59,752 nt of DNA. Source: Okeania sp. KiyG1. GTDB lineage: Bacteria; Cyanobacteriota; Cyanobacteriia; Cyanobacteriales; Microcoleaceae. Below the pieces are notes generated by a model that saw only the letters and a program-made list of their open reading frames with translations, did not search any database and had not been told where the DNA came from. Both the position numbers and the translations under genes were made by a program. Location of the stretch: contig NZ_BLZO01000106.1 in NCBI RefSeq assembly GCF_014132355.1, positions 1-59,752 on the forward strand. Direction: 5' to 3'. This document shows positions 2,558-53,480 of this stretch, piece by piece (position 1 is the stretch's first letter; each line of letters opens with the position of its first letter).

Positions 2558-2560
2558 GAC

Positions 2561-9800: not shown

Positions 9801-10773
9801 TGGTGGTGATGGCAACGATAGTCTTTTTGGAGAGACAGGCAACGATATCCTTTCTGGAGATGCAGGTAACGACAACCTATCAGGAGGAGAAGGCAGCGAT
9901 AGTATGACTGGAGGAGAAGGTAACGACTCTATTCGGGGAGCAGATGGTGGAGATACCATAGCTGGTAATGCAGGTAATGATACCATTCGCAGTGGAGCTG
10001 ACAACGACTCGGTAACAGGTGGAGATGGTAGCGATTTTATAGACGGTGGTTCTGACAACGATACTATTAATAGTGGTCCAGGAGCAGATACCGTTTTAGG
10101 TGGTTCAGAGAACGATTCAATATTTGGAGAAGGAGGTGATGACTCTCTGGTTGGTGATGATGGTGATGATACTATCGATGCTGGTTCTGGTCAGGATATC
10201 ATTCTTGGTGATATAGGAGATGATTCTATCCAAGGTGGTGATGACAATGATGGAATTAATGGTGGTATTGGTAGTGATACTATAGCTGGTGGTTCTGGGT
10301 CTGACCGACTGACAGGTGGTGCCGGGAATGATTTCTTCTTCTATGAAGTGGCAGACCAAGGTATTGATACAGTCATAGATTTCGATCGCCCTGGTGATGA
10401 TGATACATTCTTATTTACATCTGCTAACTTTGGCGGTTTAACTAATAGCGGTTTTTCTAGTGTAATTCTCCAGGATGAGAATACCGGATCGGAAGGTCAG
10501 AGTATTGGTGATGCAGAGTTGATTATTTTTGAAGGTAAGTTTGATAATGCACAAGCAGTTAATGCTGCCTTGAATGTACAAAATGGCTCAAGCGATCGCC
10601 CTGCTTTCTTTGTTTACCTAAATGGTCAACGTGGCAAATATGTCCTTGGTTATGACACAAGTTTAGCTGATGATAGTGTTCCTGCTTTTGAGCTTGGTAT
10701 ACTTAAGTCTATTACACCTGAAGAAGACCAAATTTCAACCATTATTGATGCTGGTGATTTTGAGTTTATTTAA
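6871..10773 (+). CDS. Large secreted RTX calcium-binding protein with cadherin-like domains
   Basis: 1300 residues; AAGGAG lies eight bases before the ATG. In order: a leader ([20 protein letters not shown], residues 1-35) shared with the gene starting at 15536; a PTPTETP linker (36-140); a Big_9/cadherin-like domain (about 186-275, [10 protein letters not shown] to FSYSVSNG); RTX nonapeptides of the GGxGxD type (about 286-525); a PTDPTDP then PTPPTDP linker (615-695); a second Big_9 domain (700-790); an NG2/CSPG-like repeat (790-900); a second RTX block (923-1153); and a C-terminal domain ending [12 protein letters not shown]. The RTX blocks should fold into beta-rolls on binding calcium outside the cell. 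The lack of an N-terminal Sec signal and the C-terminal ending point to type I secretion. Likely role: cell-surface or sheath adhesin (inference). No transporter genes are in the window. Confidence 0.9.
8716..8955 (+). repeat. Short tandem repeats encoding the DPT/PPTDPT linker
   Basis: A 9-base unit (CCTACAGAC/CCCACAGAC) is repeated more than 15 times, then an 18-base unit (CCTACACCTCCTACAGAC) about five times. Both are in frame inside the RTX gene, so slippage would change only linker length. Confidence 0.85.
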
Positions 10774-38429: not shown

Positions 38430-38660
38430 ATGAGTAACTGGCAAGACCAGATCGGCTTTAATCCCAGAGTTTGTCATGGGAAACCTTGTATTAAAGGAAC
38501 CCGGATTATGGTTTCGGTCATCCTAGATAATCTGGCAGAGGGGTTGACAATAGAAGAAATTGTTGAAGAATATCCACCCTTGACTTTAGAAAATGTACGA
38601 GTGGCGATCGCTTATGCTGCGGCACTGGTGAGAGAAGAAGAGCTATTACCATTACGATAG
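38430..38660 (+). CDS. DUF433 antitoxin
   Basis: 76 residues: NPRVCHGKPCIKGTRIMVS followed by ILDNLAEGLTIEEIVEEYPPLTLE fits the DUF433 (VapB-like) family, a small helix-turn-helix antitoxin. The stop is five bases before the next start, so the two genes form one operon. It should bind and neutralise the neighbour and probably repress the operon. The fit to the family consensus is near complete. Confidence 0.9.
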   Translation: MSNWQDQIGFNPRVCHGKPCIKGTRIMVSVILDNLAEGLTIEEIVEEYPPLTLENVRVAIAYAAALVREEELLPLR

Positions 38661-38665
38661 GAATT

Positions 38666-39028
38666 ATGTTGATAAAATTAGATGAAAATCTCAGTATTAC
38701 CCATGCTAATTTTCTCAGGGATGAGGGTTACGATTGCGATCGGGTTACTGATGAAGGATTATCTGGTGAGGATGATGAGGTTGTATGGCAGCAAGTTTGT
38801 ACTGAAGGACGCTTTTTTATTACTCTCGATCTTGATTTTTCTGATGTCCGCCGTTTTCCACCGGGAACTCACCCTGGTATTTTACTTTTGCGTCCGGGTA
38901 GTGGAGGTCGCCAAGCTGTGCTTGATATTTTGATGCGAGTTGTGCAGGAATATCCACTTGCAAATTTGCAGGGTTGCTTAGTGGTTGCGGATAAAACTCA
39001 AACCCGTATTCGCCGTCCCTCTGTTTGA
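38666..39028 (+). CDS. DUF5615 PIN-like toxin
   Basis: 120 residues. The acidic residues of the PIN-like/Mut7-C fold are present: LIKLDENLS at the start, EDDEVVWQQV in the middle, and FFITLDLDFSD before FPPGTHPGILLLRPG. These fit a metal-dependent ribonuclease. The usual partner, DUF433, lies immediately upstream. The length is normal for the family. Confidence 0.88.
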   Translation: MLIKLDENLSITHANFLRDEGYDCDRVTDEGLSGEDDEVVWQQVCTEGRFFITLDLDFSDVRRFPPGTHPGILLLRPGSGGRQAVLDILMRVVQEYPLANLQGCLVVADKTQTRIRRPSV

Positions 39029-39074
39029 AGTTAATAGATGTTTAATAGGGCGATCGCTTTTCTAACTTCTTCAT

Positions 39075-39122
39075 AAAAAAAGCATCGCTCCTCTAACGCG
39101 GTTGGTTTTGGGAGGAGCGATC
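39075..39122 (-). terminator. Terminator of the leader-metalloprotease gene (repeated hairpin)
   Basis: On the minus strand ATCGCTCCTC and GAGGAGCGAT form a 10-bp stem around a loop containing CCAACCGCG, followed by a run of seven T. The same hairpin type serves the protease gene ending at 48868. Confidence 0.75.
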
Positions 39123-39146
39123 GCTAATACTTCCCACTACAAGTGC

Positions 39147-42089
39147 TTACGTCAGTTGTACGCTCAACCTGTAATTAATGTCGTCCTCAATAAAAGACTT
39201 TTGCTCTGTGGGACTCCAAGTTGAAACACCTACATAATAAGTACCTGCATTCAAGGGAACGTTTATTGATTCTGGTAGAGTTCCTTCATTAAAAAACCTT
39301 GTAATGAGCTCACCTTCACTGTCTTGCAGTATCATATAAGGATCGCCAGTCAATTTATCAAGATTAAGCTTTACAGTTTTTTCACTTCCTTTTACTTCAA
39401 AGCGGTAGTAGTCTATAAAATCAAAACCTCTCCCTACAAAATCATTAACAGTCTGTTTCTTTTTGGTGAGAGTACCCAAGTTGCGGGCGCCTTCACGATA
39501 ATCATCTTCTATTGATTTCCTCAAGTCAGAAAGTGGTCTTGGCTTACCTTTGGCATTAATTCCATATACCTTGTAACCGCTGTCAGCCAATAATCTTTTA
39601 TCTAACTCGGAAACTGAGCCAAAAGAAGGAGTTGAGACCCCAGATTCAACCTCATAACTAGGATGAAAGATATCGCTCAGTGGAACATTCTTACCACCGT
39701 TAAACTTTCGTGAATATTTCCCTGTGAAGAATCCTTCAGAGACTAACTGCTCGCTCGCATAAGTCCCACCAATAAGTCCCAAGGTATGACCTAATTCGTG
39801 AATGAGTAGAGGGTAATAGTCTTCAGGGACAGAATCTTCGAGTCCTGTATTAACAGACATTGTAGTTACTCTAGGCAAAGGTTTTGATTCACTGACGCTG
39901 TCAAAAGACGCAATTCCTGCAGCACTGTTATCAGTAAGAGGATCTGCACTTAGGAATACTACCAGATCGTCAACAAATCTATTTGTCTCGAAAGTAAACT
40001 TAGGACCACGATTAATATTTACCTGTGACTTTTGTACGTTTTCCAAGTTCACTCCTTTATGTTCATCAGCAATCCATCTCGCCCAGTCATTAGCGGCTTG
40101 CTGTGCTACTTCCCGGCGCTCAGGTGTCCAGAAACCAAGATAGTCATTACGAAAATCTAAGTCAATGTTAAAGTTTTTATTATCTGGCGCGTAGGTGTTC
40201 TTAATTAGTCCTAAGTCATAAGTGCCGCCGCCTTGGAGACCTCCATTGAGAGAGTAATCAATAGTATTGCCAGACTTGCGATTGCGTTTTGAACCATCTT
40301 TCTCAGCAATAAAGCTAACTGTGCGCGGTTTCTTCCAATTAGCTTGGGTAAAGGTAATAGTATCTTGAGTGCCATTGCTCTTATTATTATCGGCATCCAC
40401 CGTCAAGAACTTACCAGGATCGAACTTCAGCGTTACATTCGATTTAGGTGCTTTGTTCAATCGAACTTGGAAAGTTCCCTCATCCCCTTCTTTCCCACTG
40501 AAAGAGAGATTGTTAATGGTAGCTAAATTTGTTGGTGCCTCTTGGGCTGACAGTTTCAGTTTGTAATCAGTTTCTCCCCAACCAATGTTAACTCTAGCGT
40601 AATAAGTGCCTGGTTTGAGAGCGCTATTAATTGATTCGTCTTTAGTACCTGCTTCACTGGAACTAGCAACGACATTGCCCTTTTTATCAACTAATTCCAA
40701 ATTAGCATCGTCCTTCAATCCCTTGAGGTCGAGAGCTAAATTAGTCCAACTCTTGACTTTGAAGCGGTAATAGTCATCGCTATCGTTAGCAAAGGAGCTA
40801 ACCAAATCGCTCAAGGTTTTATTCCCATTGATCGTACCGAGATTACGAGCTTTACTCCTGCTGTTCCCTGCACCATCTGCTTTAGTTTTTAAGACTAAGT
40901 TGTATTTGGTATCTCCCCCATCAGATGGTGAGAAGACGCTGGCGTAGTAAGTGCCTTTCTTTAAAGGTTCAGTAATAAGCTCCTTTTTTTTGCCATCGTT
41001 ATATGAACCTGCTATTGGATATTCCCGACCGCTCTGGTACAATGAGACATCAGCATTGTCGTCCAATCCCTGGAGACTCAGGTTGAGAATCGTGCCATCT
41101 TTTTTGACATTGAATTTGTAATAGTCACTGCCGTCAATGCTACCCACAAAGTCGCGGAAATTTTGATTCTTCTTTAAAGTGCCTAGATCGCGAGCGCTTT
41201 GTAAAGTACTACCTGCACCGTCTGACGAAATTGGTGTCGCTTTCAATATCAGATTATAATCAGTATTAGCTCCAAAGTTGTAGAAAACATTGGTATAATA
41301 AGTTCCTGGTAAGAGGGCGCGATTAATCGATTCGTTTTTAGTCCCTTCATTGAAGGAACCCGTTATCCAGTCACCATTACTGTCATAAAGTATTAAAGTG
41401 GCGTCTTCTTTTAGTCCTTTAAGAGTAAGGTTCACTATAGCACCATCACCGTCCACTTTGAACTGGTAGTAGTCGTTAGGATCTGACGTGCCAATAAAGT
41501 CGCTAATCTTTTGTTGCTTTTGTTTGGGAGTACCAAGATTGTAAGCAGTGTCTAGAGTATTGCCCCCCTTATCAGTTTTGCTGGCTCTTCGTTGCGACTT
41601 AAACTCAGTCTGGAGTAATTCCTCGTCAGTATTGTTGCGATCGCTCCTACTCACCGAGTCAGTATAAAAATCAGTACTATCAAGCTTCCCAATATCAAAA
41701 GCTTTACCTCGACTATTACCTGCTCGATCGCGCCTTTGAGCAGTCCTAGTTTTTGTTTCTATCTCATTAGATTCGCCACCAATTAGAGGATCGACTTTTT
41801 CCCCTACATTGTCCCCTTTTCCTATCAGTGGGTCTTCTTCCTCGATTGAGGTCTTTTCTTGTGACTCCTGAGATTCACTTAGACCCAATGTTCCTAAACT
41901 ATTCTGAGACAGTAATAATTCATCATTACCTGTATTAAAATTTTCAACTTTTACTTCCGAGCTTTCTGCACTCGACCCAATACCACTAGCCGATCGCAGC
42001 TCATTACTGACTCCATCTATTCCAGCTAACATTGGGTCGGTAAACTCTGGCCCAAACTTGCTAGATGGTTCACCAAAAATACTATCCAT
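39147..42089 (-). CDS. Secreted leishmanolysin/matrixin-like metalloprotease with PPC domains
   Basis: 980 residues; GAGGT lies six bases before the ATG. Residues 1-115 are an acidic leader (TDPMLAGIDGV, LGTLGLSESQESQ) shared with the proteases starting at 46377 and 51777. A first PPC start is cut off at SVSRSDR. Three PPC (pre-peptidase C-terminal) domains follow (about 175-515), then a beta-sandwich domain (525-600), the peptidase (about 640-880) and a last PPC domain. The zinc motif is HELGHTLGLIGG near residue 763. Position 11 is Gly rather than His; a later IFHPSYEVESGVSTP probably supplies the third ligand, as in leishmanolysin-like bacterial enzymes. No Sec signal peptide is visible. 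PPC domains are usually found on exported proteases. Confidence 0.8.
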   Translation of the reverse strand: MDSIFGEPSSKFGPEFTDPMLAGIDGVSNELRSASGIGSSAESSEVKVENFNTGNDELLLSQNSLGTLGLSESQESQEKTSIEEEDPLIGKGDNVGEKVDPLIGGESNEIETKTRTAQRRDRAGNSRGKAFDIGKLDSTDFYTDSVSRSDRNNTDEELLQTEFKSQRRASKTDKGGNTLDTAYNLGTPKQKQQKISDFIGTSDPNDYYQFKVDGDGAIVNLTLKGLKEDATLILYDSNGDWITGSFNEGTKNESINRALLPGTYYTNVFYNFGANTDYNLILKATPISSDGAGSTLQSARDLGTLKKNQNFRDFVGSIDGSDYYKFNVKKDGTILNLSLQGLDDNADVSLYQSGREYPIAGSYNDGKKKELITEPLKKGTYYASVFSPSDGGDTKYNLVLKTKADGAGNSRSKARNLGTINGNKTLSDLVSSFANDSDDYYRFKVKSWTNLALDLKGLKDDANLELVDKKGNVVASSSEAGTKDESINSALKPGTYYARVNIGWGETDYKLKLSAQEAPTNLATINNLSFSGKEGDEGTFQVRLNKAPKSNVTLKFDPGKFLTVDADNNKSNGTQDTITFTQANWKKPRTVSFIAEKDGSKRNRKSGNTIDYSLNGGLQGGGTYDLGLIKNTYAPDNKNFNIDLDFRNDYLGFWTPERREVAQQAANDWARWIADEHKGVNLENVQKSQVNINRGPKFTFETNRFVDDLVVFLSADPLTDNSAAGIASFDSVSESKPLPRVTTMSVNTGLEDSVPEDYYPLLIHELGHTLGLIGGTYASEQLVSEGFFTGKYSRKFNGGKNVPLSDIFHPSYEVESGVSTPSFGSVSELDKRLLADSGYKVYGINAKGKPRPLSDLRKSIEDDYREGARNLGTLTKKKQTVNDFVGRGFDFIDYYRFEVKGSEKTVKLNLDKLTGDPYMILQDSEGELITRFFNEGTLPESINVPLNAGTYYVGVSTWSPTEQKSFIEDDINYRLSVQLT

Positions 42090-42360
42090 AATTACCTCTG
42101 TGCAAAGATTTTTTAGCTCAATATTTGTTTTGTTTTGAGTTAGTTACGTCAGATATTAATATCTCAGTAAATATTCGTATAAGTAAGTTTTTTCTAACTA
42201 ATAACTAATTCAACTGAAGTACTTTAACATAGACCTAGAGCTTTTTGTCGATAATCAACAAATTTTTTTGATTTTTTTGAAAAAATATTCAAATTTAGTC
42301 AAAACAAGCAATTAACTATAAAAACAAAACTAATATTGACAAAAAAATTCATGTTTTATC
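42090..42360 (-). promoter_or_regulatory. Conserved upstream region 1 of leader-protease genes
   Basis: From the start codon outward this matches the DNA upstream of the proteases at 46377 and 51777. It includes the ribosome-binding site and a perfect palindrome AGATATTAATATCT at 42151-42164, 62 bases before the start codon. The palindrome is a candidate operator. The match with the 51777 region extends for several hundred bases. Confidence 0.6.
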
Positions 42361-42540
42361 ATCGAAGATCGACAATATTTAGTAAGGAGTGCGATAATAG
42401 TTTCTCCATCAATTAATATTGAAAATTACAGATAAATTATTTAGAAATGTTTAATGGCCAAAATTAATCGAAGAGTTACTTATTTCTCAGGGCAAGGAAA
42501 AATTAAATTGATAAGTAATTATCTCTATCAATATCTACCA

Positions 42541-42697
42541 GGACTTACGCAGAGACTCTACAGATAGGGAGGGCGTTTTGCTACCGCATAACTCCGTTAA
42601 CGCTCCGCGACATGTAAAGCGGAGCTTGGCGTTAGCCAATACCATTTGCTCACGCAAAGCTCCGTTTTATATGTTGCGCAGCAAAACGCCCCTACAA
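42541..42697. repeat. Half family C element fused to an Rpn gene fragment
   Basis: It starts CAGGACTTACGCAGAGACTCTAC and ends GCCCCTACAAGATGGTG, running straight into nuclease codons. The usual right end (TGCGTAAGTCC) is missing. The interior holds an extra inverted repeat (GGGCGTTTTGCTACCGC ... GCGCAGCAAAACGCCC). Confidence 0.7.
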
Positions 42698-42773
42698 GAT
42701 GGTGTATTAGTGCCTAATACTAAGTCGCCAACTACTCCGATCCACTTTCGCGAAGTGCAAATGCAAAAGGATA
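42698..42773 (+). pseudogene. Rpn/DUF2887 nuclease fragment (25 codons)
   Basis: DGVLVPNTKSPTTPIHF then REVQMQKDT matches residues near the start of the genes at 46991 and 52545. Upstream it is replaced by a half family C element and downstream by a family D repeat. Confidence 0.85.
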
Positions 42774-42864
42774 CCGAAATATTGTGGTTTAAAGCCTCCC
42801 CTTTTAAGGGGATAATAAATAAAAATTTTCATGATTAGTCAATCCTCTTCTTTTCAAGGATAGG
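42774..42864. repeat. Family D hairpin repeat
   Basis: CCGAAATATTGTGGTTTAAAG, then CCTCCCCTTTTAAGGGG and CTTCTTTTCAAGGATAGGTAAT. It joins the Rpn fragment on the left and a family B element on the right. Confidence 0.7.
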
Positions 42865-42867
42865 TAA

Positions 42868-42994
42868 TATCAAATCCGGTAGCATTGGTATAATTCAGTA
42901 TTGAGGAATAATTTATTGATATTCTAGAGTAGGACAGCCTTTTGTCCCTACTGACGATAGAAATTATATTACTCCCAAGCCAACGGATTTGATA
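42868..42994. mobile_element. Family B MITE-like element, TSD TAA
   Basis: Ends TATCAAATCCGG and CGGATTTGATA, flanked by TAA at 42865-42867 and 42995-42997. 127 bases long; no coding capacity. Confidence 0.75.
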
Positions 42995-43039
42995 TAATTC
43001 TAAATTCTAAATTCTAAATTCTAAATTCTTAAACGTAAT

Positions 43040-43897
43040 TTATTCATTCCCCAATCCACTTGCGAACAGCGAATATTTCTGACGAAAAGACTTATCTGAA
43101 TCAACATGGATGGTGTATGTACCAGCAACAGGATTATCTATCAGCACTTGCTCCACATTATCTACTGAGTTCTTCTGATTCCGCACCGCATCGTCTGACG
43201 GTTTGCCAGGGTTTAAACTCCAGGGATAATAGGTCTGGCCATCCGGTCCAACAATCCATAAGTCGAGGTCATTCACTAACGCTGGTGTGTCATCATCCAA
43301 TCCATTGCCATGAGCTTTTCCAGCAGGGTCAGTCCAAACAATAGTGGTTTTCAGAGGCTCACTACCGTCTGATTTAACTTCTATCTTCTGCTTGCTGCCA
43401 GTATAACTCTCGTCTTGGCGTAAAAGAGAACCGTCTTCTGCTTTCGAGTCACTCAAGAAGTTAGCACCAGCAGCGCCATCTACAACACCCCAACCATAAC
43501 TATAATCAGGACCTGGGTTGCCTGCATCAGCAGCAGTATGAATTAGTAAACCTTTCATGGTTGCGCTGCTAGGTTTGACCTCGGAACCGTGTAAATTTGT
43601 GTAATGTTGGTGCAGGAGTGCAGCAGTACCAGTGACATGAGGTGTTGCCATTGAAGTACCTGATTTTGTGGTGTAGGCTTTATCAAAAGCAGAGCTAGTC
43701 GAGTACACCTCAAAACCATTGGCTACCACATCCGGCTTAATACGACCATCATCTGTCGGTCCCCAGCTAGAAAATTTGGTCATTTGTTTCCGGTCGTTAA
43801 TGGCTCCTACAACCAAAGTATTTTTGGCGTTTTTCTGGATAGGCAAAGTGTCATAGCCAGTTTTTTCGTTACCATCTATTGAGGGGGTTGAGTACAC
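43040..43897 (-). CDS. C-terminal part of S8 subtilisin-like protease (frameshifted)
   Basis: Contains the catalytic serine in GTSMATPHVTGTAALL, preceded by TLVVGAINDRKQMTKFSSWG and IKPDVVANG, all standard for subtilases, then a C-terminal beta-sandwich (P/proprotein-like) domain. It begins 11 bases after the stop of the upstream frame. Adding one base at the T5/A5 run (43931-43935) would restore NANKKDEYWYAITNESVYST as one continuous chain. The GTG start assigned here is therefore probably not a real start. It cannot form a complete active site without the upstream part. Confidence 0.85.
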   Translation of the reverse strand: MYSTPSIDGNEKTGYDTLPIQKNAKNTLVVGAINDRKQMTKFSSWGPTDDGRIKPDVVANGFEVYSTSSAFDKAYTTKSGTSMATPHVTGTAALLHQHYTNLHGSEVKPSSATMKGLLIHTAADAGNPGPDYSYGWGVVDGAAGANFLSDSKAEDGSLLRQDESYTGSKQKIEVKSDGSEPLKTTIVWTDPAGKAHGNGLDDDTPALVNDLDLWIVGPDGQTYYPWSLNPGKPSDDAVRNQKNSVDNVEQVLIDNPVAGTYTIHVDSDKSFRQKYSLFASGLGNE

Positions 43898-43908
43898 AGA
43901 TTCATTTG

Positions 43909-46377
43909 TTATTGCATACCAATATTCATCTTTTTATTAGCATTATCTGGTATTTTTGAATCGTCAACAAAAGTAGCTAAGTAGTAGGATTGATTTCCAT
44001 TATATTTGTCGTCGCGGTCATTACCTGCAGCCCAAACACTGAGAAGATGGGGATTATCATACAATACCTTGTCTAGTTCTTTAGTATAGTTGCTATATTT
44101 GCCAAAGTCTGGATCTTCATCTGAGTCTTCGTCAAGTGGCACCGTCCAAAGCCAGCTTTTTCCTTTCCTGTTCCAGCCAGTCATACCCCCGTAGGAGTGA
44201 TTTGATATATCTATCTCCTTAGCGACTTCGTCTATTTCTGCTATATCGTTCTGAAAGTCGAAACTAATAATTTCGACCTGGTTAGCCATACCACGAGCTT
44301 TTTTATCTACACCAGTAGCTCCAATAATCCCTGCAACGTGAGTAGCATGATCGTTATAGTCGCTGACATCGTCGCCAACATTGACGCGACTGCCACCATC
44401 AGCAGCAAATTCTTGGTGAGTGTCGCGAACTTTTCCTTGATCCCAGACACCAACCGTTACCCCAGAACCATCTAAGTTTAATCCTAGCTCACGACCAGAC
44501 CATAACTGGTCAGTATTAGTCGTATTGGCAGAGCTTTCGTTCAAAGGAATCGGATCGAACTGATCTACAGTAGGACCAGTACCAATAAAATAGACCCCCT
44601 TCTCCACTTCCACTGGCTCATCAATAAGCTCGAAACCTATATCCTCTAACTCAGACAGATTCAGATTCTCTTTCAGAACAGTTAATGTTTCTTGATTATT
44701 TTCAGCTTCAAGAGTCAAACTATAATTAGCATTGATATTGTTATTTCTTGCCTGCACCCGCACATAATAAGTTCCAGCAGCCAAATTCTCCTCTATTTTC
44801 TCTATATTAGTACCTCCTCGTTTAGACTTCTCAATTACTTTTCCTTGCCTATTCAATAAAAACAAATCCGCATTACCAGTCAACTCATCCAGAGAAATAT
44901 TTACATTCCTTTCCCAATCTAAAGTAAAAGTGTAAAAATCTAGGCGATCGCCACTTCCCACAAAATCGCTGTAAGACAAGACCTGGGAAAGACTTCCAAT
45001 ATCCAGTGCTTTCCCCCTGCTATTTCCTGCATCATCTGGAGGCGCCTTTTCTAGCTCGAACCCTAAGTAATAATCTGTCGAATCCGATTTACTCCTTGTT
45101 TTCACCTGTATGTAGTAATCCCCTGAACTGAGAACATGACTAATACTTTCTGCAGTAGTGCCATTGTTTTTTGACTTTTTAATCACTTTACCCTTACTGT
45201 TATGCAGATACAAGTCTGCATTATCCTTCAAACCCGCCAGAGAAATATCTATCTCAGCACTTTCCTCTAGTGTAAACTTATAAAAATCTTTCTGGTCAGA
45301 CCTGCTGACAGACTGCCTAAGTTTAGTCTCTTGATCCTGACCCATAGTCCCAAAATTATAGGCTTTGCTGCGGTTGTTACCAGGTAAGTCCCATAACTTG
45401 GAACCCAAGTCGAGAGTGTAGTCAGAGCTGACTCTACTATTTCTGCGTTTCACTTCAACATAGTAATCACCAGGAACTAGAGTCTCCTGTATTTGCTCAG
45501 TTCTCTTACCATTTAGTTTGGACTTGTCAATAACTTTCTGGTTACTGTCTAACAGGTACAAATCGACATTGCCACTCAAACCACCTAGAGTAATATATAC
45601 GTCTTCCTTCTTGTTGACAGTCAAAGAGTAAAAGTCTTGGGGGTTATTTTTTCCTAAAGAAGCACTAAATGACTCGGTATCAATAAATCTCATCCCTAAA
45701 TGATAGTCCGTTGAAACCTGCTTATTTCTGGATTGAACCTGTATGTAATACTCCCCTGGGTTCAGAATGTGACTAATACTTTCCGAGGCAGCACCATTAC
45801 GCTTCGACTTTTTAATTTCCTTACCTTTACTATTACGGAGATATAGATCGGCATTGCCATTCAAATCAGACAAGTCAATCTCAACTTGACCCCTTGCATC
45901 AACACTAAACTTATAAAAATCCTTGCGATCGCTCCTACTCACCGAGTCAGTATAAAAATCAGTACCATCAAGATTCCCAATATCAAAAGCTTTACCTCGA
46001 CTATTACCTGCTAGATCCTGCTTTTGAGCAGTCCTGGTTTTTGTTTCTATCTCATTAGATTTGCTATCAGTTAGAGGATCGACTTTTTCCCCTACATTAT
46101 CCTCTTTTCCTATCAGTGGGTCTTCTTCCTCAATTGAAGTATTCTCTTGTGACTCCTGAGATTCACTTAAACCCAATGTTCCTAAACTATTCTGAGATAG
46201 TAATAATTCATCATTACCTGTATTCAAATTTTCAATTTTTAGTTCCGAGCTTTCTGCACTCCACTCAATACCAATAGGCGATCGCAGCTCATCACTTACT
46301 CCATCTATCCCAGCTAACATTGGGTCGATCGACTTTTGCCCTAAACTGCCAGATGCTTCATCAAAAATATTATCCAT
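43909..46377 (-). CDS. N-terminal part of leader-PPC-subtilisin protease (frameshifted)
   Basis: 822 residues. The leader (residues 1-115) matches the other two proteases here. Four PPC-type repeats follow (YKFSVDARGQVEIDLSDLNG and similar), then the first part of an S8 domain: Asp in VTVGVWDQG near residue 642, His in DHATHVAGIIGA near 677, and the oxyanion Asn in SVWAAGND. The frame ends NIGMQ at a single-base shift in an A5 run; the Ser half is the next gene. The spacing of the catalytic residues fits a subtilase. GAGGT precedes the ATG. The rejoined protein would have about 1112 residues. Confidence 0.85.
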   Translation of the reverse strand: MDNIFDEASGSLGQKSIDPMLAGIDGVSDELRSPIGIEWSAESSELKIENLNTGNDELLLSQNSLGTLGLSESQESQENTSIEEEDPLIGKEDNVGEKVDPLTDSKSNEIETKTRTAQKQDLAGNSRGKAFDIGNLDGTDFYTDSVSRSDRKDFYKFSVDARGQVEIDLSDLNGNADLYLRNSKGKEIKKSKRNGAASESISHILNPGEYYIQVQSRNKQVSTDYHLGMRFIDTESFSASLGKNNPQDFYSLTVNKKEDVYITLGGLSGNVDLYLLDSNQKVIDKSKLNGKRTEQIQETLVPGDYYVEVKRRNSRVSSDYTLDLGSKLWDLPGNNRSKAYNFGTMGQDQETKLRQSVSRSDQKDFYKFTLEESAEIDISLAGLKDNADLYLHNSKGKVIKKSKNNGTTAESISHVLSSGDYYIQVKTRSKSDSTDYYLGFELEKAPPDDAGNSRGKALDIGSLSQVLSYSDFVGSGDRLDFYTFTLDWERNVNISLDELTGNADLFLLNRQGKVIEKSKRGGTNIEKIEENLAAGTYYVRVQARNNNINANYSLTLEAENNQETLTVLKENLNLSELEDIGFELIDEPVEVEKGVYFIGTGPTVDQFDPIPLNESSANTTNTDQLWSGRELGLNLDGSGVTVGVWDQGKVRDTHQEFAADGGSRVNVGDDVSDYNDHATHVAGIIGATGVDKKARGMANQVEIISFDFQNDIAEIDEVAKEIDISNHSYGGMTGWNRKGKSWLWTVPLDEDSDEDPDFGKYSNYTKELDKVLYDNPHLLSVWAAGNDRDDKYNGNQSYYLATFVDDSKIPDNANKKMNIGMQ

Positions 46378-46680
46378 AATTACCTCTGTGCAAAGATTTT
46401 TAGATCAATATTTGTTTTTTTGAGTTAGTTACGTCAGATATTAATATATCAGTAAATATTCGGATAAGTAAGTTTTTATATAGCGCTGTGCGCAGGGAAC
46501 AGGGAACAGGGAACAGGGAACAGGGAACAGGGGGAATAAAAAACCGATAATATAAGACTTTTAGCTATTGGACATTTCCTGTGATTTGTACATAAGCCAG
46601 CGCACATTGCTATAACGAATAACTAACTCAACTGACCTACTTTAACATAGACCAAAAGCTTTTCCTAAAACTTTTATAGA
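46378..46680 (-). promoter_or_regulatory. Conserved upstream region 2 of leader-protease genes
   Basis: Same as the regions at 42090 and 51778 near the gene. The palindrome is degenerate here (AGATATTAATATAT). A six-fold CAGGGAA heptamer array (46493-46533) is inserted at the point where the others read TTTTTTCTAACT, after which the match resumes (ACTTTAACATAGACC). Confidence 0.55.
46493..46533. repeat. CAGGGAA heptamer array
   Basis: About six tandem CAGGGAA units interrupting the conserved protease upstream region. Confidence 0.85.
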
Positions 46681-46728
46681 CAGCTATTCACCATGATATA
46701 ATTATCGCCATGACAACAAAATTTTCGA

Positions 46729-46755
46729 ATGAAAACAGACAGTATATTTTACCGA
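46729..46755 (+). pseudogene. Detached 5' end of the Rpn/DUF2887 gene
   Basis: ATGAAAACAGACAGTATATT... encodes MKTDSIFYR, the start expected for this nuclease family. A family D repeat then breaks the frame (stop at 46768). The rest of the gene resumes near 46883 as LFLEIPGVYFQLIGKSPT. Confidence 0.7.
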
Positions 46756-46882
46756 ATAATTAAGGTTTAAAGCCTCTCCTTTTAAGGAGAAACAAGAAAA
46801 AATTTTCCTTTGATTCAATCCTCTTCCTTTTAGGGAGAGGTAATTATCAATTATCCATTATCAATTATCAATTATTGAAAGA
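46756..46882. mobile_element. Family D hairpin repeat inserted in the Rpn gene
   Basis: 127 bases lie between TTTTACCGA and CTATTTTTAGAG. Removing them joins FYR to LFLE. Half-palindromes CCTCTCCTTTTAAGGAGA and CTTCCTTTTAGGGAGAGG and a tail of ATTATCA units are shared with the other copies. Confidence 0.65.
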
Positions 46883-46990
46883 CTATTTTTAGAGATACCT
46901 GGTGTTTACTTTCAACTCATTGGTAAATCTCCCACTCTGGCAAATTCTTACAAGTTTCGCTCAGTCGAAATCAAACAAACAGCTTTTCGT

Positions 46991-47644
46991 TTGGATGGTG
47001 TATTAGTTCCTAATATTCAGTCTCCTGATACTCCCATTCATTTCGGTGAAGTGCAGATGCAAAAGGATGAAGCATTTTACCGTCGATTTTTTGGCGAGAT
47101 ATTTCTGTATCTGAGTCAATATGAGGATGCCAAGTATTGGCAAGGGTTAGTCATATTTCGCAACCGTAATGTTGAACCTGAAGATACTCAACCCTATCAA
47201 GCTTTGTTAAATAGCAGCAATGTTACTGTAATTTACCTGGAAGACTTGGGAGAGGAAGCTTACGATAACTTGGGTTTAGGCATAGTTAAGTTGATAGTAG
47301 AAGGCCAAGCAAGGGCAGTGCAACAAGCAAAAATGTTAGCGGCCAAAGCAACGGCAGAACTAGCAGACGATGCTGAACGGCAGAAAGTGCTAGAATTAGT
47401 AAAAACAATTATCTTATACAAGTTTCAAGATTTAGAACCAGAGGAGGTAATAGAAATGTTAGGCATGGAGGACTTTAAAAAATCTCGACTTTATCAAGGA
47501 ATCTGGGAAGAGGGGGCATTATCAACCAAGTTGCGAATAGTTCCTTTGTTGTTAGAACTGGGGTTGACTGTAGAAGAGATAGCGCGACGATTGGAATTAA
47601 CTGTGGAGCAAGTCCAACAAGCTGCTCAAAATCAGTCTAATTAA
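46991..47644 (+). CDS. Rpn/DUF2887 PD-(D/E)XK nuclease, 5' end disrupted
   Basis: 217 residues from a TTG; the true start (46729) is cut off by a 127-bp repeat. The catalytic stretch HFGEVQMQKDEAFYRRFFGEI matches the E-x-Q nuclease motif of the Rpn family (recombination-promoting, transposase-like nucleases). A C-terminal LTVEEIARRLELTVEQVQQ helix-turn-helix-like motif is shared with the copy at 52545. It lacks the EGREEGRKE repeat found there. Codons upstream of the TTG (IPGVYFQLIGKSPTLANSY) are still readable, so a shortened protein may be made. Confidence 0.75.
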   Translation: MDGVLVPNIQSPDTPIHFGEVQMQKDEAFYRRFFGEIFLYLSQYEDAKYWQGLVIFRNRNVEPEDTQPYQALLNSSNVTVIYLEDLGEEAYDNLGLGIVKLIVEGQARAVQQAKMLAAKATAELADDAERQKVLELVKTIILYKFQDLEPEEVIEMLGMEDFKKSRLYQGIWEEGALSTKLRIVPLLLELGLTVEEIARRLELTVEQVQQAAQNQSN

Positions 47645-47653
47645 TGTTAAATA

Positions 47654-47690
47654 GCGATCGCTCTTATTGATTGGTAGAGCGATCGCCTTT
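47654..47690 (+). terminator. HIP1-containing terminator
   Basis: GCGATCGCTCT and AGAGCGATCGC form a perfect 11-bp stem with an 11-base loop, nine bases past the Rpn stop, followed by CTTTCT. A second hairpin of the CGGTTGTTTT type follows at 47713-47755. Confidence 0.65.
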
Positions 47691-47972
47691 CTAATATCTC
47701 CAAAAGAAAAAAGCGATCGCTCTTCAAACGCGGTTGTTTTTGGCTGGAGCGATATAGCTGCCGCTAGGCTCCGCCAACGCCTGTTTGTAGTAACGACTTT
47801 AGTCATAAAAAGTGACTGGTGAGTTCCGAAACTCAGGTTGAAAAAGGATGTATTCAACAATTAATAATTTCTTTGTTGCAGGAAAAATTAAGCAGGGAAA
47901 ATAAATATACCTAGTTAAACAGATTTGATATAATACACTGTAAATAATTCTATTAATATTACCAAAAATACT

Positions 47973-48230
47973 ATGATGACCACCGTTTCTGTCGAACTAC
48001 CCACAGGAGTATTCTCAGCGCTGCGTAAAAATCCGCACGAGTTTGTTAGAGAAATGCGAATAGCTGCTGCGGTAAAATGGTACGAATTAGGGGAAATTTC
48101 CCAGGGAAAAGCTGCGGAAATAGCAGGCTTAACAAGGGCGGAATTTATTAACGCCCTATCTCGTTACCGAGTAGATTTTATGCAGTACACTGCTGAAGAG
48201 TTAGCCCTGGAGATAACGGATGTTGATTAA
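47973..48230 (+). CDS. UPF0175 family antitoxin
   Basis: 85 residues: VSVELPTGVFSALRKNPHEF, then VKWYELGEISQGKAAEIAGL and TRAEFINALSRYRV, the UPF0175 pattern with a helix-turn-helix. The C-terminal coding end overlaps the next start by 11 bases, as is usual for UPF0175/DUF3368 pairs. It likely neutralises the downstream PIN-like protein and represses the operon. A relic copy lies at 38204. Confidence 0.88.
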   Translation: MMTTVSVELPTGVFSALRKNPHEFVREMRIAAAVKWYELGEISQGKAAEIAGLTRAEFINALSRYRVDFMQYTAEELALEITDVD

Positions 48231-48576
48231 AAGAGTCATAATTAATTCTTCCCCATTAATCGTTTTATTTAAAAGCAAACAAACCGATTTACTACCACAA
48301 CTTTTTGATGAAATTTTGGTTCCAGGGGCGGTGTGGGATGAAGTGACAGCAGGAAGGAAAAATGATGTTGCTGCAACGGGGTTAATGAAGGTTTCTTGGG
48401 CGCAACGTATAGAAATGACCGAGATTTCCCCAGAAGTATTAGCTTGGGATTTGGGTAAAGGCGAGTCAGCGGTGCTTGGTTTGGCATTAAAAAAACCTGG
48501 TTTTGCAGTTATTATTGACGATAGAGCAGCTCGTCGTTGCGCTCAGTCTTTCGGAGTGGTAACTATGCTTTTTTAA
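48220..48576 (+). CDS. DUF3368 PIN-like toxin, probably 3' truncated
   Basis: 118 residues. IINSSPLIVLFK gives the first PIN-like acidic/polar site, VWDEVTAG and GKGESAVLGLAL the middle, and VIIDDRAARRCAQSFG the third. Family members run on for about 40 more residues (a helix after VVT); here VVTMLF is followed at once by stop and GGATAATTGATAATGG repeats. So the repeat probably replaced the end. Active-site residues are retained, but the fold may be incomplete. Confidence 0.8.
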   Translation: MLIKRVIINSSPLIVLFKSKQTDLLPQLFDEILVPGAVWDEVTAGRKNDVAATGLMKVSWAQRIEMTEISPEVLAWDLGKGESAVLGLALKKPGFAVIIDDRAARRCAQSFGVVTMLF

Positions 48577-48635
48577 TGGATAATTGATAATGGATAATTG
48601 ATAATTACAGCGGTTTTCATTTCAGTATACCACAG

Positions 48636-48661
48636 TAGGGACGTTGCATGCAACGTCCCTA
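48636..48661. repeat. Palindrome GGGACGTTGCATGCAACGTCCC
   Basis: A perfect 22-base palindrome with TA and TA either side. Diverged copies (GACGTTGCATGGAACGTC) occur twice in the 11.5-11.8 kb spacer. Confidence 0.75.
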
Positions 48662-48758
48662 CAGGGTTTTGGTTATGGCGATGTGGTTCATCAATGAGCA
48701 AAAGCGCTGTAAAGATAGTTTTGATTGGTTGGAATTAACTATCGCTCCTTTCCTCCCC

Positions 48759-48806
48759 AAAAAAGACCGCTCCTCAAACTCGGTTGTTTTGGGAGGAGCG
48801 ATCGCT
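48759..48806 (-). terminator. Terminator of the reprolysin-like gene (repeated hairpin)
   Basis: On the minus strand CGCTCCTC/GAGGAGCG arms enclose CCAAAACAACCGAGTTT, followed by a run of T (A6 at 48759-48764). Same design as 39075-39122. Confidence 0.7.
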
Positions 48807-48867
48807 ACAAGAGAAAAATTATTTGAACTTTGCTATCATGGAAAGAAAAAATGCCCTAGATGTGAAA

Positions 48868-51777
48868 TCAGAATATCCAAAAGAGGTGATCACTGTAGTC
48901 GTAAATCTTACCATCAACTACACTCTGAATAGCAATTTCATAATCGACACCAATAGCCAAGTTAGTCGGTACTGTCCAGAGGTAAATACCATCGCTAGCA
49001 GTTGAGCTGCTTATTGTGCGATTAAACTGGTTATTCTTGTACAAATAGATGCCAACATTCTCGCTGATGTTGTCATTCCAGGTGAGGTTGTAGCTATTTC
49101 CTGTAATCAGAAAATCGCCACCATTTGGTGAAGTGACGGTGATGAACTTATCTGGTTCATTAGCTTTAATGGTGAAGTTGCTGTTACTAAAGTCGTAAAT
49201 GTCGTTGTCACCGATACTCTGAATAGCGACTTTGTAATCACTACCAGCAGCTATACTTTCTGGTACTGTCCAGGTGTAAATGCCATCGCTAGCAGTTGAG
49301 CTGGCTATTGTGCTATCAAACTCGTCATTCTTGTACAAATAGATACGAACATTCTCGCTGATGTTGTCATTCCAGGTGATGTTGTAACTTTTTCCTGGTT
49401 CTAGAGTATTGCCACCATTTGGCGATTTTACCGTGATGGAATCATTTGCTTTAATAGTGAAGTTACTGTTACTGTAGTCAAAAATGTTATTATCAACCAC
49501 ACTCTGAATAGCTACTTGATAATCACTACCAGCAGCTATACTTTCTGGTACTGTCCAGGTGTAACTGCCATCACTAGCAGTTGAGCTGGCTATTGTGCGA
49601 TCAAACTCGTCATTCTTGTACAAATAGATACGAACATTCTCGCTGATGTTGTCATTCCAGGTGATGTTGTAACTTTTTCCTGGTTCTAGAGTATTGCCAC
49701 CATTTGGCGATTTTACCGTGATGGAATCATTTGCTTTAATAGTGAAGTTACTGTTACTGTAGTCAAAAATGTTATTATCAACCACACTCTGAATGGCTAC
49801 TTGATAATCACTACCAGCAGCTATACTTTCTGGTATTGTCCAGGTGTAACTGCCATCACTAGCAGTTGAGTTAGTTATCATCCGATCAAACTCATCATTC
49901 TTGTACAAATAGATACGAACATTCTCACTGAGATTATCATTCCAGGTGATGTTGTAGCTTTTTCCTGGTTCTAGAGTATTGCCTCCGTTGGGCGATTTGA
50001 CCGTGATGAAGTCGTCTGGATCATCAGCTTCAATAGTAAAGTTGCTGTTACTGAAATCAGAGACGCTGCTATCGCTGATGCTGGTGATTTTCACCTTATA
50101 GTTACTGCCATCAGTTATGGATGTGGGTACTGTCCAACTGTAACTGCCATCGCTGCTGGTGGAACTGGTAATAGTGCGGTTGAAGGAACCTCCTTTGTAT
50201 AATTCGAGCTTGACATTTTCACTGATGTTATCATTCCAGGTGATGTTGTAGCTATTTCCTGGTTCTAGGGTATTGCCACCGTTGGGTGATTTGACAGTGA
50301 TAGAGTCTTTAGGTTTGGCTGCATCTACTGATGGTCGCCAGTTAGCAGCATATTCAGCTACCTTGTTAATCGCTAAAGCTGAGTTCTCAAAGTTGCTTCG
50401 ACCAAGTGCTTCACCATTATAGCTAACAGCAGGGTTAGAGAAGTATGGAAGTCTGTTCCGAGCATAAGACATTATAGTTCCCGCGCCACTAGGGGTAGTG
50501 TAACCATAGCCGTAACTAAAAGCACCTTGACCATCAGCATTATCGCGATCATGGGCTAATCCTAGATTATGTCCTATTTCATGGGCAAGGGTATGACGAT
50601 TCCTAGCATTATAATTGGTAACAACATTAAAAGCATACCTTTCAAATCCGTAAGCAGGTGTTCCCATCAGAAAACCTCTGCCACCAGCATCATCAAAATC
50701 GCTGGCAAATAAGCTCACAATATCTGCACCATAATCTTGACGCAGTTTGTGAACTTCATCCATGTAGCCATCTGAAGGTTTTTGCAGTCGTTCAAGTTCA
50801 GTATCACTCTTACCAGACTCAGTATAGTTAACCTCTGCTGTATGAACTAACCGTAACTGGGATTTAACTCCGCTTTTAGCAAAGGCTTCATTGGTATCAT
50901 CAACAGCAAACTCAATTAAATCCTTCATAGCATCCGTACCCCCCTCCGCTCGGCGAGCTTCTGGAGTGTAAACAACCATCAAATCTATTGTTGAAGAGTC
51001 ATCTAAACTAGTGGGTGCGTCTGCAGCAGTATCAACGATATTTATAACTATTGGTTCGTCAGTATGAGAGTGCGGGCTATGTGCATCCAAACTCAAAGTA
51101 TAATTAGCATTTGCATTCCCCTTTGGCTGTACCCTGACATAATAAGTCCCTGGATTCAAAGTCCGCTCAATATCCTCTGCTTTCTTACCACCCTTGGTAG
51201 ACTTCTCAAGAACTTTCCCCTTGTTATTCAACAAATACAAATCCGCATTTCCACTGAGACCACGCAACTCAATATCTACTTCTGTCTTTTCTTTGACTCT
51301 GAACTTATAAAAGTCCCTCCGGTCAGACCTACCGACAAATTCCCGCAACTTCTCATCATCCTTCAACACTCCGAAATTATAGGCTTTCCCCCGGCTATTA
51401 CCTGCTCGATCCCGCCTTTGAGCAGTCCTGGTTTTTGCTTCTATCTCATTAGATTGGTCACCAGTTAGGGAATCGACTTCTTCAACTACATTATTCTCTT
51501 TTCCTATCAGTGGGTCTTCTTTTTCAATTGAGGTCTTTTCTTGTGACTCCTGAGATTCACTTAAACCCAATGTTCCTAAACCATTCTGGGGCAGCAATAA
51601 TTCATCATTACCTGTACTCAAATTTTCAACTTTTACTTCCGAGCTTTCTGCACTCGACTCAATACCAGTAGCCGATCGCAGCTCATCACTAACTTTTGCT
51701 CCATCTATTCCAGCTAACATTGGGTCAGTAAACTCTGGCCCCAACTTGCGAGATGCTTCACCAAAAATATTATCCAT
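48868..51777 (-). CDS. Secreted reprolysin-like metalloprotease with PPC domain and five C-terminal repeats
   Basis: 969 residues; GAGGT precedes the ATG. The leader (1-115) is that of the neighbouring proteases. One PPC domain follows (about 125-235). The M12-like peptidase starts at STIDLMVVYTPEARR, has the full zinc motif HEIGHNLGLAHD (near residue 399) and the Met-turn GTIMSYAR. After YAANWRPS come five ~95-residue beta-sandwich repeats with SPNGGNTLEPG, YNITWNDNISENV and WTVPESI, resembling the Ser-Thr-rich (Kre9/Knh1-like) repeats seen on bacterial secreted enzymes. All catalytic residues are present, so it should be an active extracellular protease. No classical signal peptide is seen. 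Confidence 0.88.
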   Translation of the reverse strand: MDNIFGEASRKLGPEFTDPMLAGIDGAKVSDELRSATGIESSAESSEVKVENLSTGNDELLLPQNGLGTLGLSESQESQEKTSIEKEDPLIGKENNVVEEVDSLTGDQSNEIEAKTRTAQRRDRAGNSRGKAYNFGVLKDDEKLREFVGRSDRRDFYKFRVKEKTEVDIELRGLSGNADLYLLNNKGKVLEKSTKGGKKAEDIERTLNPGTYYVRVQPKGNANANYTLSLDAHSPHSHTDEPIVINIVDTAADAPTSLDDSSTIDLMVVYTPEARRAEGGTDAMKDLIEFAVDDTNEAFAKSGVKSQLRLVHTAEVNYTESGKSDTELERLQKPSDGYMDEVHKLRQDYGADIVSLFASDFDDAGGRGFLMGTPAYGFERYAFNVVTNYNARNRHTLAHEIGHNLGLAHDRDNADGQGAFSYGYGYTTPSGAGTIMSYARNRLPYFSNPAVSYNGEALGRSNFENSALAINKVAEYAANWRPSVDAAKPKDSITVKSPNGGNTLEPGNSYNITWNDNISENVKLELYKGGSFNRTITSSTSSDGSYSWTVPTSITDGSNYKVKITSISDSSVSDFSNSNFTIEADDPDDFITVKSPNGGNTLEPGKSYNITWNDNLSENVRIYLYKNDEFDRMITNSTASDGSYTWTIPESIAAGSDYQVAIQSVVDNNIFDYSNSNFTIKANDSITVKSPNGGNTLEPGKSYNITWNDNISENVRIYLYKNDEFDRTIASSTASDGSYTWTVPESIAAGSDYQVAIQSVVDNNIFDYSNSNFTIKANDSITVKSPNGGNTLEPGKSYNITWNDNISENVRIYLYKNDEFDSTIASSTASDGIYTWTVPESIAAGSDYKVAIQSIGDNDIYDFSNSNFTIKANEPDKFITVTSPNGGDFLITGNSYNLTWNDNISENVGIYLYKNNQFNRTISSSTASDGIYLWTVPTNLAIGVDYEIAIQSVVDGKIYDYSDHLFWIF
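48880..50320 (-). repeat. Five ~285-bp in-gene repeats
   Basis: The two central units (about 49436-50005) are nearly identical at DNA level with a 285-base period. Outer units are diverged. They encode the C-terminal repeats of the reprolysin-like protein. Confidence 0.85.
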
Positions 51778-52160
51778 AATTACCTCTGTACAAAGATTTT
51801 TTAGATCAATATTTGTGTTTTTTGAGCTAGTTACCTCAGATATTAATATCTCAGTAAATATTCGGATAAGTAAGTTTTTTCTAACTCTAGCAGAGGGAAG
51901 AAGGGAAAGTATTAAGTTGTCTGAGTTTTAAGCTTTTGATCTGTCAAACACCTTTGCTTCGACTGCTATAATAACTAACTCAACTTATATATTTTAACAT
52001 AGACCGAGAGCTTTTTTGTCGATAATCGACAATTTTTTTGATTTTTTCAAAAAATCTTCAAATTTAGTCAAAAAAGCAATTAACTATAAAAACAAGACTA
52101 ATATTGACAAAAAAGATTCATATATTGTCGAAAATTGACAATATTTAGTAAAGAGTGCGA
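51778..52160 (-). promoter_or_regulatory. Conserved upstream region 3 of leader-protease genes
   Basis: Nearly the same as region 1. The palindrome AGATATTAATATCT (51838-51851) is intact inside CTCAGATATTAATATCTCAG. A 100-base AT-rich block (TTGTCGATAATCGACAA...) is shared with region 1. A different spacer (CTAGCAGAGGGAAGAAGGG) sits where region 2 has its heptamer array. Confidence 0.6.
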
Positions 52161-52221
52161 TAATAGTTTCTCCATAAATTAATATTGAAGATTACAGATA
52201 AATTATTTAGAAATGTCTAAT

Positions 52222-52386
52222 ATCATGTCCGGTTGAACAGTTATAAATAAATAACGACGGAGGAGTCAGGAGTCAACCCACCCTAACCCCTCCCAGGAGG
52301 GGAAGTCAGGAGTCAGGAGGGAAGAAAGAAGAAGGAAGAAGAAGAAGGAGAAAGTTTTTTTTATCACTAATCATCCGGACATGATA
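52222..52386. mobile_element. Family A MITE-like element with identifiable empty site, TSD TAA
   Basis: Perfect ends TATCATGTCCGG and CCGGACATGATA, flanked by TAA (52219-52221 and 52387-52389). The homologous DNA at 42448-42460 reads GAAATGTTTAATGGCC with no insert, which is the empty site. Interior: GGAGTCA and GAAGAAGG short repeats. Confidence 0.92.
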
Positions 52387-52475
52387 TAATGGCCAAAATT
52401 AATCGAAGAGTTACTTATTTCTCAGGGCAAGGAAGAAATTAAATTGATAAGTAATTATCTCTATCAATATCTACC

Positions 52476-52532
52476 AGGACTTACGCACCAGAGTCTACAG
52501 ATAGGGAGGGCGAATACCATTCGCCCCTACAA
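52476..52532. repeat. Half family C element fused to the Rpn gene
   Basis: AGGACTTACGCACCAGAGTC... GGGCGAATACCATTCGCCCCTACAA runs straight into GATGGTGTATTAGTGCC of the nuclease gene. The other end of the element is absent. Confidence 0.75.
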
Positions 52533-52544
52533 GATGGTGTATTA

Positions 52545-53279
52545 GTGCCTAATACCGAGTCGCCAACTACTCCAGTCCACTTTGGCGAAGTGCAAATGCA
52601 AAAGGATACAGCATTTTACCGTCGATTTTTTGCCGAGATTTTCCTCTATCTTTATCAATATGAAGAAACCAAGCATTGGCAAGCATTAGTAGTATTTCGC
52701 AACCGCAAGATTGAACCCGAAGATTCTCAACCCTATCAAGCTTTGTTAAATAGTAGCAACGTTACCAGAATTTATCTGGAAGATTTGGGCGATGAAGCTT
52801 ATGAAAACTTGGGTTTAGGCATAGTTAAATTGATAGTAGAAGACCAAGCAAGGGCAGTGGAACAGGCAAAAATGTTAGCGGCCAAAGCAACGGCAGAACT
52901 AGCAGACGATGCTGAACGACAAAAAGTGCTAGAATTAGTAAAAACAATTATTTTATACAAATTTAAAGATTTAGAACCAGAGGAGGTAATAGAAATGTTA
53001 GGCATGGAGGACTTTAAAAAATCTCGACTTTATCAAGGAATGCAGCGGCTAGCTAGGCAGGAGTGTATAGAAGAGGGCAGAGAAGAAGGTAGAAAAGAAG
53101 GCAGAGAAGAAGGCAGAGAAGAAGGTAGAAAAGAAGGCAGAGAAGAAGGCAGAGAAGAGGGAAAACTATTGACAGTTCCTCTGTTGTTAGAACTGGGGTT
53201 GACTGTAGAAGAGATAGCACGACGATTGGAGTTAACTGTGGAGCAAGTTCAACAAGCCGCTCAAAATCAGTCTAATTAA
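52545..53279 (+). CDS. Rpn/DUF2887 PD-(D/E)XK nuclease, 5' truncated by a repeat
   Basis: 244 residues from a GTG. About 50 N-terminal residues seen in the 46729-47644 copy (MKTDSIFYR...SVEIKQTAFRL) are missing, replaced by a half family C element. The nuclease core HFGEVQMQKDTAFYRRFFAEI and most of the following helices are intact. A run of EGREEGRKEGREE units (nine-base repeats) precedes the C-terminal VEEIARRLELTVEQVQQ motif. Loss of the first strand and helix of the nuclease fold may abolish activity. Confidence 0.8.
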   Translation: MPNTESPTTPVHFGEVQMQKDTAFYRRFFAEIFLYLYQYEETKHWQALVVFRNRKIEPEDSQPYQALLNSSNVTRIYLEDLGDEAYENLGLGIVKLIVEDQARAVEQAKMLAAKATAELADDAERQKVLELVKTIILYKFKDLEPEEVIEMLGMEDFKKSRLYQGMQRLARQECIEEGREEGRKEGREEGREEGRKEGREEGREEGKLLTVPLLLELGLTVEEIARRLELTVEQVQQAAQNQSN

Positions 53280-53280
53280 T

Positions 53281-53480
53281 CAGGACTCACGCAGAGACTC
53301 TACTTATGGAGAGGGCGAATACCATTCGCCCCTACAAATGGTGCTTTAACAGGACTTACGCACGATCGCTATATATAGGCCGTTCGCCCCATCACCCCAT
53401 CACCCCATCTCCCCATCTCCCCATCTCCCCATCTCCTCATCACCCCATCTCCCCATCTCCCCATCTCCCCATCTCCCCAC
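53281..53480. repeat. Family C halves and CCCCATCT repeats downstream of ppc
   Basis: Two left ends, AGGACTCACGCA (about 53281) and AGGACTTACGCA (about 53352), the first with a GGCGAATACCATTCGCCC palindrome, then ~12 units of CCCATCTC/CCCATCAC. No gene seen. Confidence 0.75.

Follow-up and report, generated by a model that had tools for sequence, protein, structure and literature searches.

How does one and the same beginning come to stand in front of different enzymes? This question is raised by three protease genes on the minus strand of contig NZ_BLZO01000106.1 of Okeania sp. KiyG1 (assembly GCF_014132355.1), which start at positions 42089, 46377 and 51777 of a 59,752-bp stretch of DNA (the window, i.e., the whole stretch that we analyzed) and which have in common an N-terminal leader and the DNA upstream of it. 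The explanation that we favor, with a rough probability of 0.45, is that recombination between paralogues spreads a promoter and a disordered leader over different hydrolases, and that this leader serves a signal-peptide-independent, probably type I-like, step of export or maturation.

The first-pass annotation described the three leaders as nearly interchangeable and the upstream DNA as shared, and our alignments bear out both statements. Open reading frames (ORFs) are present at all three starts, and the leader of the 51777 gene (residues 1-120, 51418-51777; acidic, and disordered in the predicted model) is matched at 82% and 79% identity over 120 amino acids by those of the other two genes (46024-46377 and 41736-42089). 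The coding DNA of the three leaders is 0.89-0.91 identical in pairwise comparisons, with a nonsynonymous divergence (dN) of 0.08-0.11 and a synonymous divergence (dS) of 0.14-0.18, and the stretches TDPMLAGIDG, SAESSE, TGNDELLL and LGTLGLSESQESQE are all found in the leaders, the 46377 copy having SIDPMLAGIDG. Upstream of the starts, ~100 bp are common to all three genes at ~94% identity (51778-51879, 46378-46477 and 42090-42192, minus strand), a block that we take to hold the promoter or 5′ untranslated region, and parts of the 51777 block are conserved in Trichodesmium. Beyond ~100 bp the homology is pairwise, is broken by insertions and extends into a plus-strand Rpn-family gene: between the 42089 and 51777 genes it reaches -685 (42089 coordinates), and between the 46377 and 51777 genes it lies in blocks at -1268 to -1162, -1125 to -617 and -286 to -241 (46377 coordinates).

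On the protease side the homology stops at +389/+395 (42089/51777), +455 (42089/46377) and +537/+543 (46377/51777), with weaker PPC similarity past these points. Since the homology ends there and the genes differ from that point on, the copied unit consists of the Rpn gene, the upstream block, the leader and the start of the first PPC domain. Judged from these alignments, the three genes are recent local tandem segmental duplicates with exchange of their 3′ parts, which is why leader and promoter look interchangeable. The divergently oriented neighbors included in the duplicated segment are DUF2887 members of the family of Rpn recombination-promoting nucleases; the gene at 52545-53279 (plus strand) scores 88.5 bits with TIGR01784, above the cut-off of 52.1, the gene at 46991-47644 (plus strand) scores 50.4, slightly below it, and a third (42687-42774, plus strand) is a remnant. 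Within the first of these genes, 12-nt tandem repeats (53045-53173, plus strand) encode a charged stretch of Glu, Gly, Arg and Lys.

Behind the leaders the three proteins differ, as the ORF list and Pfam matches show. The 51777 gene (48868-51777) encodes the leader, one PPC domain, an M12B domain (residues 261-447) and five Kre9/KNH Ig-like repeats; its catalytic domain matches reprolysin (PF13688) at 2.6e-22 and the Mep72 model at 3.3e-36, yet far below that model's cut-off. The 46377 gene has a clear match to subtilase (PF00082) and is, as assembled, split into two ORFs in different frames (822 and 285 amino acids), the first part (43909-46377) encoding the leader, four PPC domains and the N-terminal part of the S8 domain, and the other (43040-43897) the remainder of the S8 domain. 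The break (43897-43933, minus strand) falls inside the S8 domain, with profile positions 1-164 in one ORF and 152-288 in the other, and may be a sequencing error or a real loss, the DNA alone being compatible with either. The 42089 gene (39147-42089) encodes the leader, a truncated PPC domain, several further PPC domains, a domain with an HELGH motif (HELGHTLGL) and a C-terminal PPC domain. It has this motif but no Pfam peptidase match at E<=1e-3; a weak match to Reprolysin_3 (0.011) and a non-significant match to the leishmanolysin profile (0.19) both point toward the metzincins, and the predicted model of the catalytic domain has a mean confidence score (pLDDT) of only 34.8. Activity of this protein is doubtful, because the Met-turn of its orthologue L174 appears to have been lost: SIMSYS of the orthologue aligns with GVSTPS (region 39620-39800, minus strand). 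Thus, of the leishmanolysin/matrixin-like, subtilisin and reprolysin-like domains proposed earlier, the reprolysin and the subtilase are clear, the latter in two frames, while the class of the 42089 protein is without a significant profile match. The C-termini of the window proteases are PPC, S8-associated or Kre9/KNH regions.

The leader is found on other proteins as well. The genome of the window contains five leader copies on three contigs, i.e., in unlinked places, and these have five different downstream architectures. For example, one of the two further copies (L009) precedes PPC, Kre9/KNH, M23 and DUF6973 domains, and the other (L010) precedes six PPC domains and nothing else. Locus L009 also contains, at ~410-3145 (plus strand), a reprolysin-like/Calx-beta frame with a weak M10_C match and a leader-like start, with no ATG, GTG or TTG ahead of the leader. 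In Trichodesmium metagenome-assembled genomes (MAGs), the leader is followed by a reprolysin (L012), by M23 (L013, read with a gap), and in L011 by two PPC domains and what looks like a subtilase prodomain (PF22148, E 0.023, below the cut-off). The profile search that was suggested as a check therefore places the leader on several unrelated parts (reprolysin, S8, metzincin-like, M23 and PPC only) in two genera, rather than in one orthologous group. A wide family of leaders was not found: the profile matches four of the 62 genomes of the window's family and the identical four (the window's own included) among 389 genomes sampled from its order, and a single-sequence search across 386 genomes sampled from the phylum finds the leader in two, one of them again the window's own. 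By genus, it is present in one of six genomes of the window's genus and in three of seven of the other genus, where the third case (G032) is a broken stub. This stub comprises ~52 residues and 23 bp of upstream DNA (L067, 5983-6249, minus strand) and lies away from gnd. A scan of genome contigs found no relatives with the window leader and two with the Trichodesmium leader (its own record and a second Trichodesmium MAG). There was no match in the plasmid collection and no convincing profile match in Pfam, NCBIfam or PDB sequences, and we found nothing on such a leader in the literature, judged from titles and abstract openings.

Two comparisons argue for exchange between genes. In a genome of the same family, the 42089 protein has an orthologue (L174, G025) that is 51% identical over ~690 residues; when read from an internal ATG, this orthologue carries a different, unrelated-looking leader of 117 residues that ends in KDVLTGN and has a net charge of -7. 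In the 42089 gene, the leader of the neighboring genes is joined after ~30 residues of a PPC domain that stays incomplete. The different leader of the orthologue and the truncated PPC domain at the join indicate that the 42089 gene has probably captured the leader of its neighbors secondarily. The junction (41635-41644, minus strand), at which homology to the 46377 gene stops, lies two bases beyond a HIP1 octamer (41637-41644), one of 30 HIP1 sites in the window. The second comparison concerns L011 and L012, which represent one locus behind gnd in two Trichodesmium MAGs: they are 91-92% identical in DNA through gnd, the upstream region, the leader and two PPC domains, and this identity then stops abruptly, with the reprolysin following in L012 and the apparent subtilase prodomain in L011. 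Directly before the start, upstream blocks of 35-56 bp of the window genes recur at 82-97% identity in the gnd-locus genes of Trichodesmium; the leader genes on contigs C93 and C58 and the Trichodesmium M23 leader gene are without them.

These comparisons make a recombining 5′ cassette of narrow range well supported. The proposal that the leader is a mobile cassette swapped between proteases thus holds in part: secondary capture in the 42089 gene and the partial retention of promoter DNA between genera speak for it, and autonomous mobility does not stand, the window copies being a local tandem duplication with 3′ exchange. We rejected an autonomous mobile element, as the unit has neither ends nor a constant linked gene. 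No inverted repeats of at least 40 bp are present at 38500-53400 (shorter ones were not sought), and beside the unlinked leader genes no listed ORF of at least 200 amino acids resembles the Rpn-family gene (by reading; no family search was made).

As to its function, the leader could be a pro-segment, i.e., a folding helper, inhibitor or solubility tail that is removed or kept after export, with the export signal elsewhere, for example toward the C-terminus or within the PPC domains. That the leader precedes proteases fits this explanation, as do two other proteins: L174 pairs a leader of similar type with C-terminal RTX repeats (PF00353), a block that could by itself direct type I secretion, and a further protein of the genome with the leader matches M10_C weakly and Calx-beta strongly. 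However, the leader also heads a protein of PPC repeats only, so that it is not tied to proteases, and one would expect a classical inhibitory propeptide to evolve in step with the catalytic domain, but this leader is common to several peptidase families. We see the pro-segment as a possible explanation, and a somewhat unlikely one.

The composition and evolution of the leader bear on a second alternative, that it has no sequence-specific role. In an AlphaFold2 model built with eight homologues, residues 1-114 have a pLDDT below 50 nearly throughout and no secondary structure, and the PPC domain of the same model has 10-residue block means of 65-96. When the reprolysin of the window is compared with its Trichodesmium orthologue, the two leaders show 45% identity, dN 0.42 and dS 0.57 (dN/dS ~0.75); the corresponding values are dN 0.094 and dS 0.61 (0.15) for the PPC domain and dN 0.094 and dS 0.41 (0.23) for the catalytic part. 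By these values the leader was inherited along with its gene and yet changes almost freely, with a DPLIG core retained (51503-51516, 46109-46122 and 41821-41834 in the 51777, 46377 and 42089 genes, all on the minus strand, with a second copy at 41779-41792 in the last).

Acidity and this core also recur more widely. Net charge over the first 85 residues is -7 to -23 in 13 leaders and -7 in two further ones. Other leaders without a Sec-like core, on contigs C31, C84 and C162, in G015 and G025, in Trichodesmium (L179) and in a genome of another family (G294), have 98-118 residues, a net charge of -7 or lower, and D-x-[LI]-T-G 10-27 residues ahead of the first PPC domain. The core motif is present in 9 of 11 chosen leaders, against 0.17 expected from shuffles, the other two being short leaders; this count omitted near-duplicates, C58, the C162b, C162c and C93 reprolysin-like leaders (where the motif is present and not directly before a PPC domain), and those surveyed proteins whose starts were RTX, Sec-like or PPC-direct. 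The motif itself is not enriched in the genome, where the DNA pattern for D-P-[LIMF]-[TIM]-G occurs at 24 places versus 29 for the reversed control, and matches outside the known leader genes fall, by reading, either in ORFs of other kinds or outside any ORF. When seven more divergent leaders were scored against the window profile, only the C93 reprolysin-like leader, which is without a usual start codon, exceeded all 1000 shuffles; for the other six, 12 to 228 of 1000 shuffles scored at least as high, and we do not claim common descent for them. As only the C93 leader exceeds all shuffles, the wider set may be convergent. One more ORF (L129) has the motif at residue 118, and the start ahead of it has a net charge of -11 and a proline-rich stretch. 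Contig C162 itself (L055, 16 kb) has frames of up to 2642 amino acids rich in PPC and Calx-beta matches, three of them with acidic leaders that contain D-x-[LI]-T-G.

If the leader had no role of its own, the tandem duplication would simply have copied a promoter and a gene start, and the acidic stretch would be a nearly neutral linker. The dN/dS of ~0.75 between orthologues, the predicted disorder and the inclusion of the upstream gene in the duplicated unit are all consistent with this. On the other side, leaders that can otherwise hardly be aligned agree in acidity, length and a D-x-[LIVF]-[TIV]-G core, and upstream DNA blocks and leader are kept together across two genera, which makes a neutral linker quite unlikely.

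The position of the leader is what suggests export. PPC domains are a module of secreted proteases. The leader was reported not to be a classical signal peptide, and we agree: by a crude hydropathy measure the three leaders have no Sec-type hydrophobic core, the best 14-residue mean in the first ~54 residues being 0.33-0.49, versus 2.56-3.46 in three Sec-like homologues. Nor does it look like a double-glycine leader of a C39 substrate, in which a GG or GA cleavage site follows an LSxxELxxI-like helix, as the eight-row leader alignment has no conserved GG and the model shows residues 1-114 without a helix. Homologues of the reprolysin domain occur in 7 of 291 genomes of the order, those of the window and Trichodesmium included, and of the remaining five, three have a Sec-like start and one begins with RTX repeats, while in the last (L076) other domains come first and the start lies beyond the stretch examined. 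A leishmanolysin-like PPC protease (L175, G007) has, by reading, RTX-like repeats at its start. Since these homologues start in a Sec-like manner or with RTX repeats, the leader stands where its relatives have an export element. It would be one option among several, given that 43 PPC frames surveyed in the order have Sec-like, RTX-first, PPC-first and other starts, with only L115 having such a leader and core before the first PPC domain. That the proteins are instead cytosolic, with PPC domains as intracellular stabilizers, fits an N-terminus without a Sec-type hydrophobic segment and is highly improbable, as homologous catalytic domains elsewhere bear Sec-like segments or RTX repeats and PPC is described as a module of secreted proteases (an excerpt of PMC3327674).

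In our preferred explanation, recombination between paralogues at the PPC-coding boundary would put promoter and leader on different hydrolases and so produce a group of extracellular enzymes that are controlled alike. The leader would, less surely, stand in for a Sec signal peptide or RTX block, keeping the chain unfolded and acidic for a probable type I-like export through an ABC transporter and TolC, and its D-x-[LI]-[TI]-G core may be a recognition or processing point ahead of the folded PPC domains. Four frames of ABC transporters with a C39 domain are present in the genome: two have C39, membrane and ATPase domains, one stops before any ATPase domain, and one adds a cyclic-nucleotide-binding domain.

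Several points weigh against this explanation. The export role is one that we infer from the sequences. The window proteins have no RTX repeats (PF00353) at E<=1e-3, and a search of 17 other ORFs of the window gave no ABC, HlyD or TolC domain (for HlyD and TolC partners, the search covered these ORFs and not the whole genome). The leader is not obligatory, since several of the surveyed PPC proteins are leaderless and begin almost at the PPC domain. Read from its first ATG, L174 has a leader of 170 residues with a net charge of 0. The HIP1 coincidence at the 42089 junction was spotted post hoc, and the Trichodesmium swap may be an assembly chimera, because only the last 70 bases of the L011 contig follow the point at which identity stops.

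A bolder version, which we hold to be doubtful, is that filamentous cyanobacteria have, in the acidic D-x-[LI]-[TI]-G leader, a novel N-terminal determinant of signal-peptide-independent secretion; the leader would be interchangeable, with promoter and leader moved by recombination, perhaps at HIP1 sites and perhaps aided by the Rpn nuclease, so that one regulated export route gains new enzymes. A short, portable, sequence-defined leader on several enzyme classes is a candidate export determinant and, should it export, would be a secretion tag for cyanobacteria; it is likewise a candidate for an unrecognized export or processing tag. The locus also illustrates how enzymes may diversify by exchange of the parts behind a constant promoter and leader.

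Elsewhere in the window, two large RTX/cadherin ORFs (6871-10773 and 15536-23158, plus strand) have a near-identical start, i.e., a second common N-terminus on different bodies. Of two small plus-strand ORFs near the proteases (38666-39028 and 48220-48576), one is a DUF5615 protein and the other is without a Pfam match and PIN-like by eye.

Parts of this arrangement resemble known systems. RTX exoproteins, which are exported without an N-terminal signal peptide, abound in cyanobacteria (T. erythraeum IMS101 is reported to have 35 putative RTX protein genes in an excerpt of PMC3034196), and a leader of similar type occurs once alongside a C-terminal RTX block, in L174; the window proteins, in contrast, are without RTX repeats, and their shared segment is N-terminal, predicted to be disordered and non-repetitive. 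HesF of Anabaena sp. PCC 7120 is likewise an exoprotein with no identifiable signal peptide, whose secretion needs the TolC-like HgdD (PMC4390845, in the part consulted), but it is an attachment factor rather than a protease, and the likeness is one of description. The catalytic and PPC domains of the window come from the known families of PPC-bearing secreted proteases (M12B near Mep72, and subtilases); most M12B homologues found in the order, however, bear Sec-like segments or RTX repeats, and the window leader is set apart from these families by its lack of a convincing database match. There is also a likeness to the polymorphic toxins, in which, as an extract of PMC3482391 describes, a constant N-terminal trafficking part is combined with C-terminal catalytic modules swapped by recombination; the downstream modules of the window are ordinary peptidases, and the likeness is one of working, not of membership.

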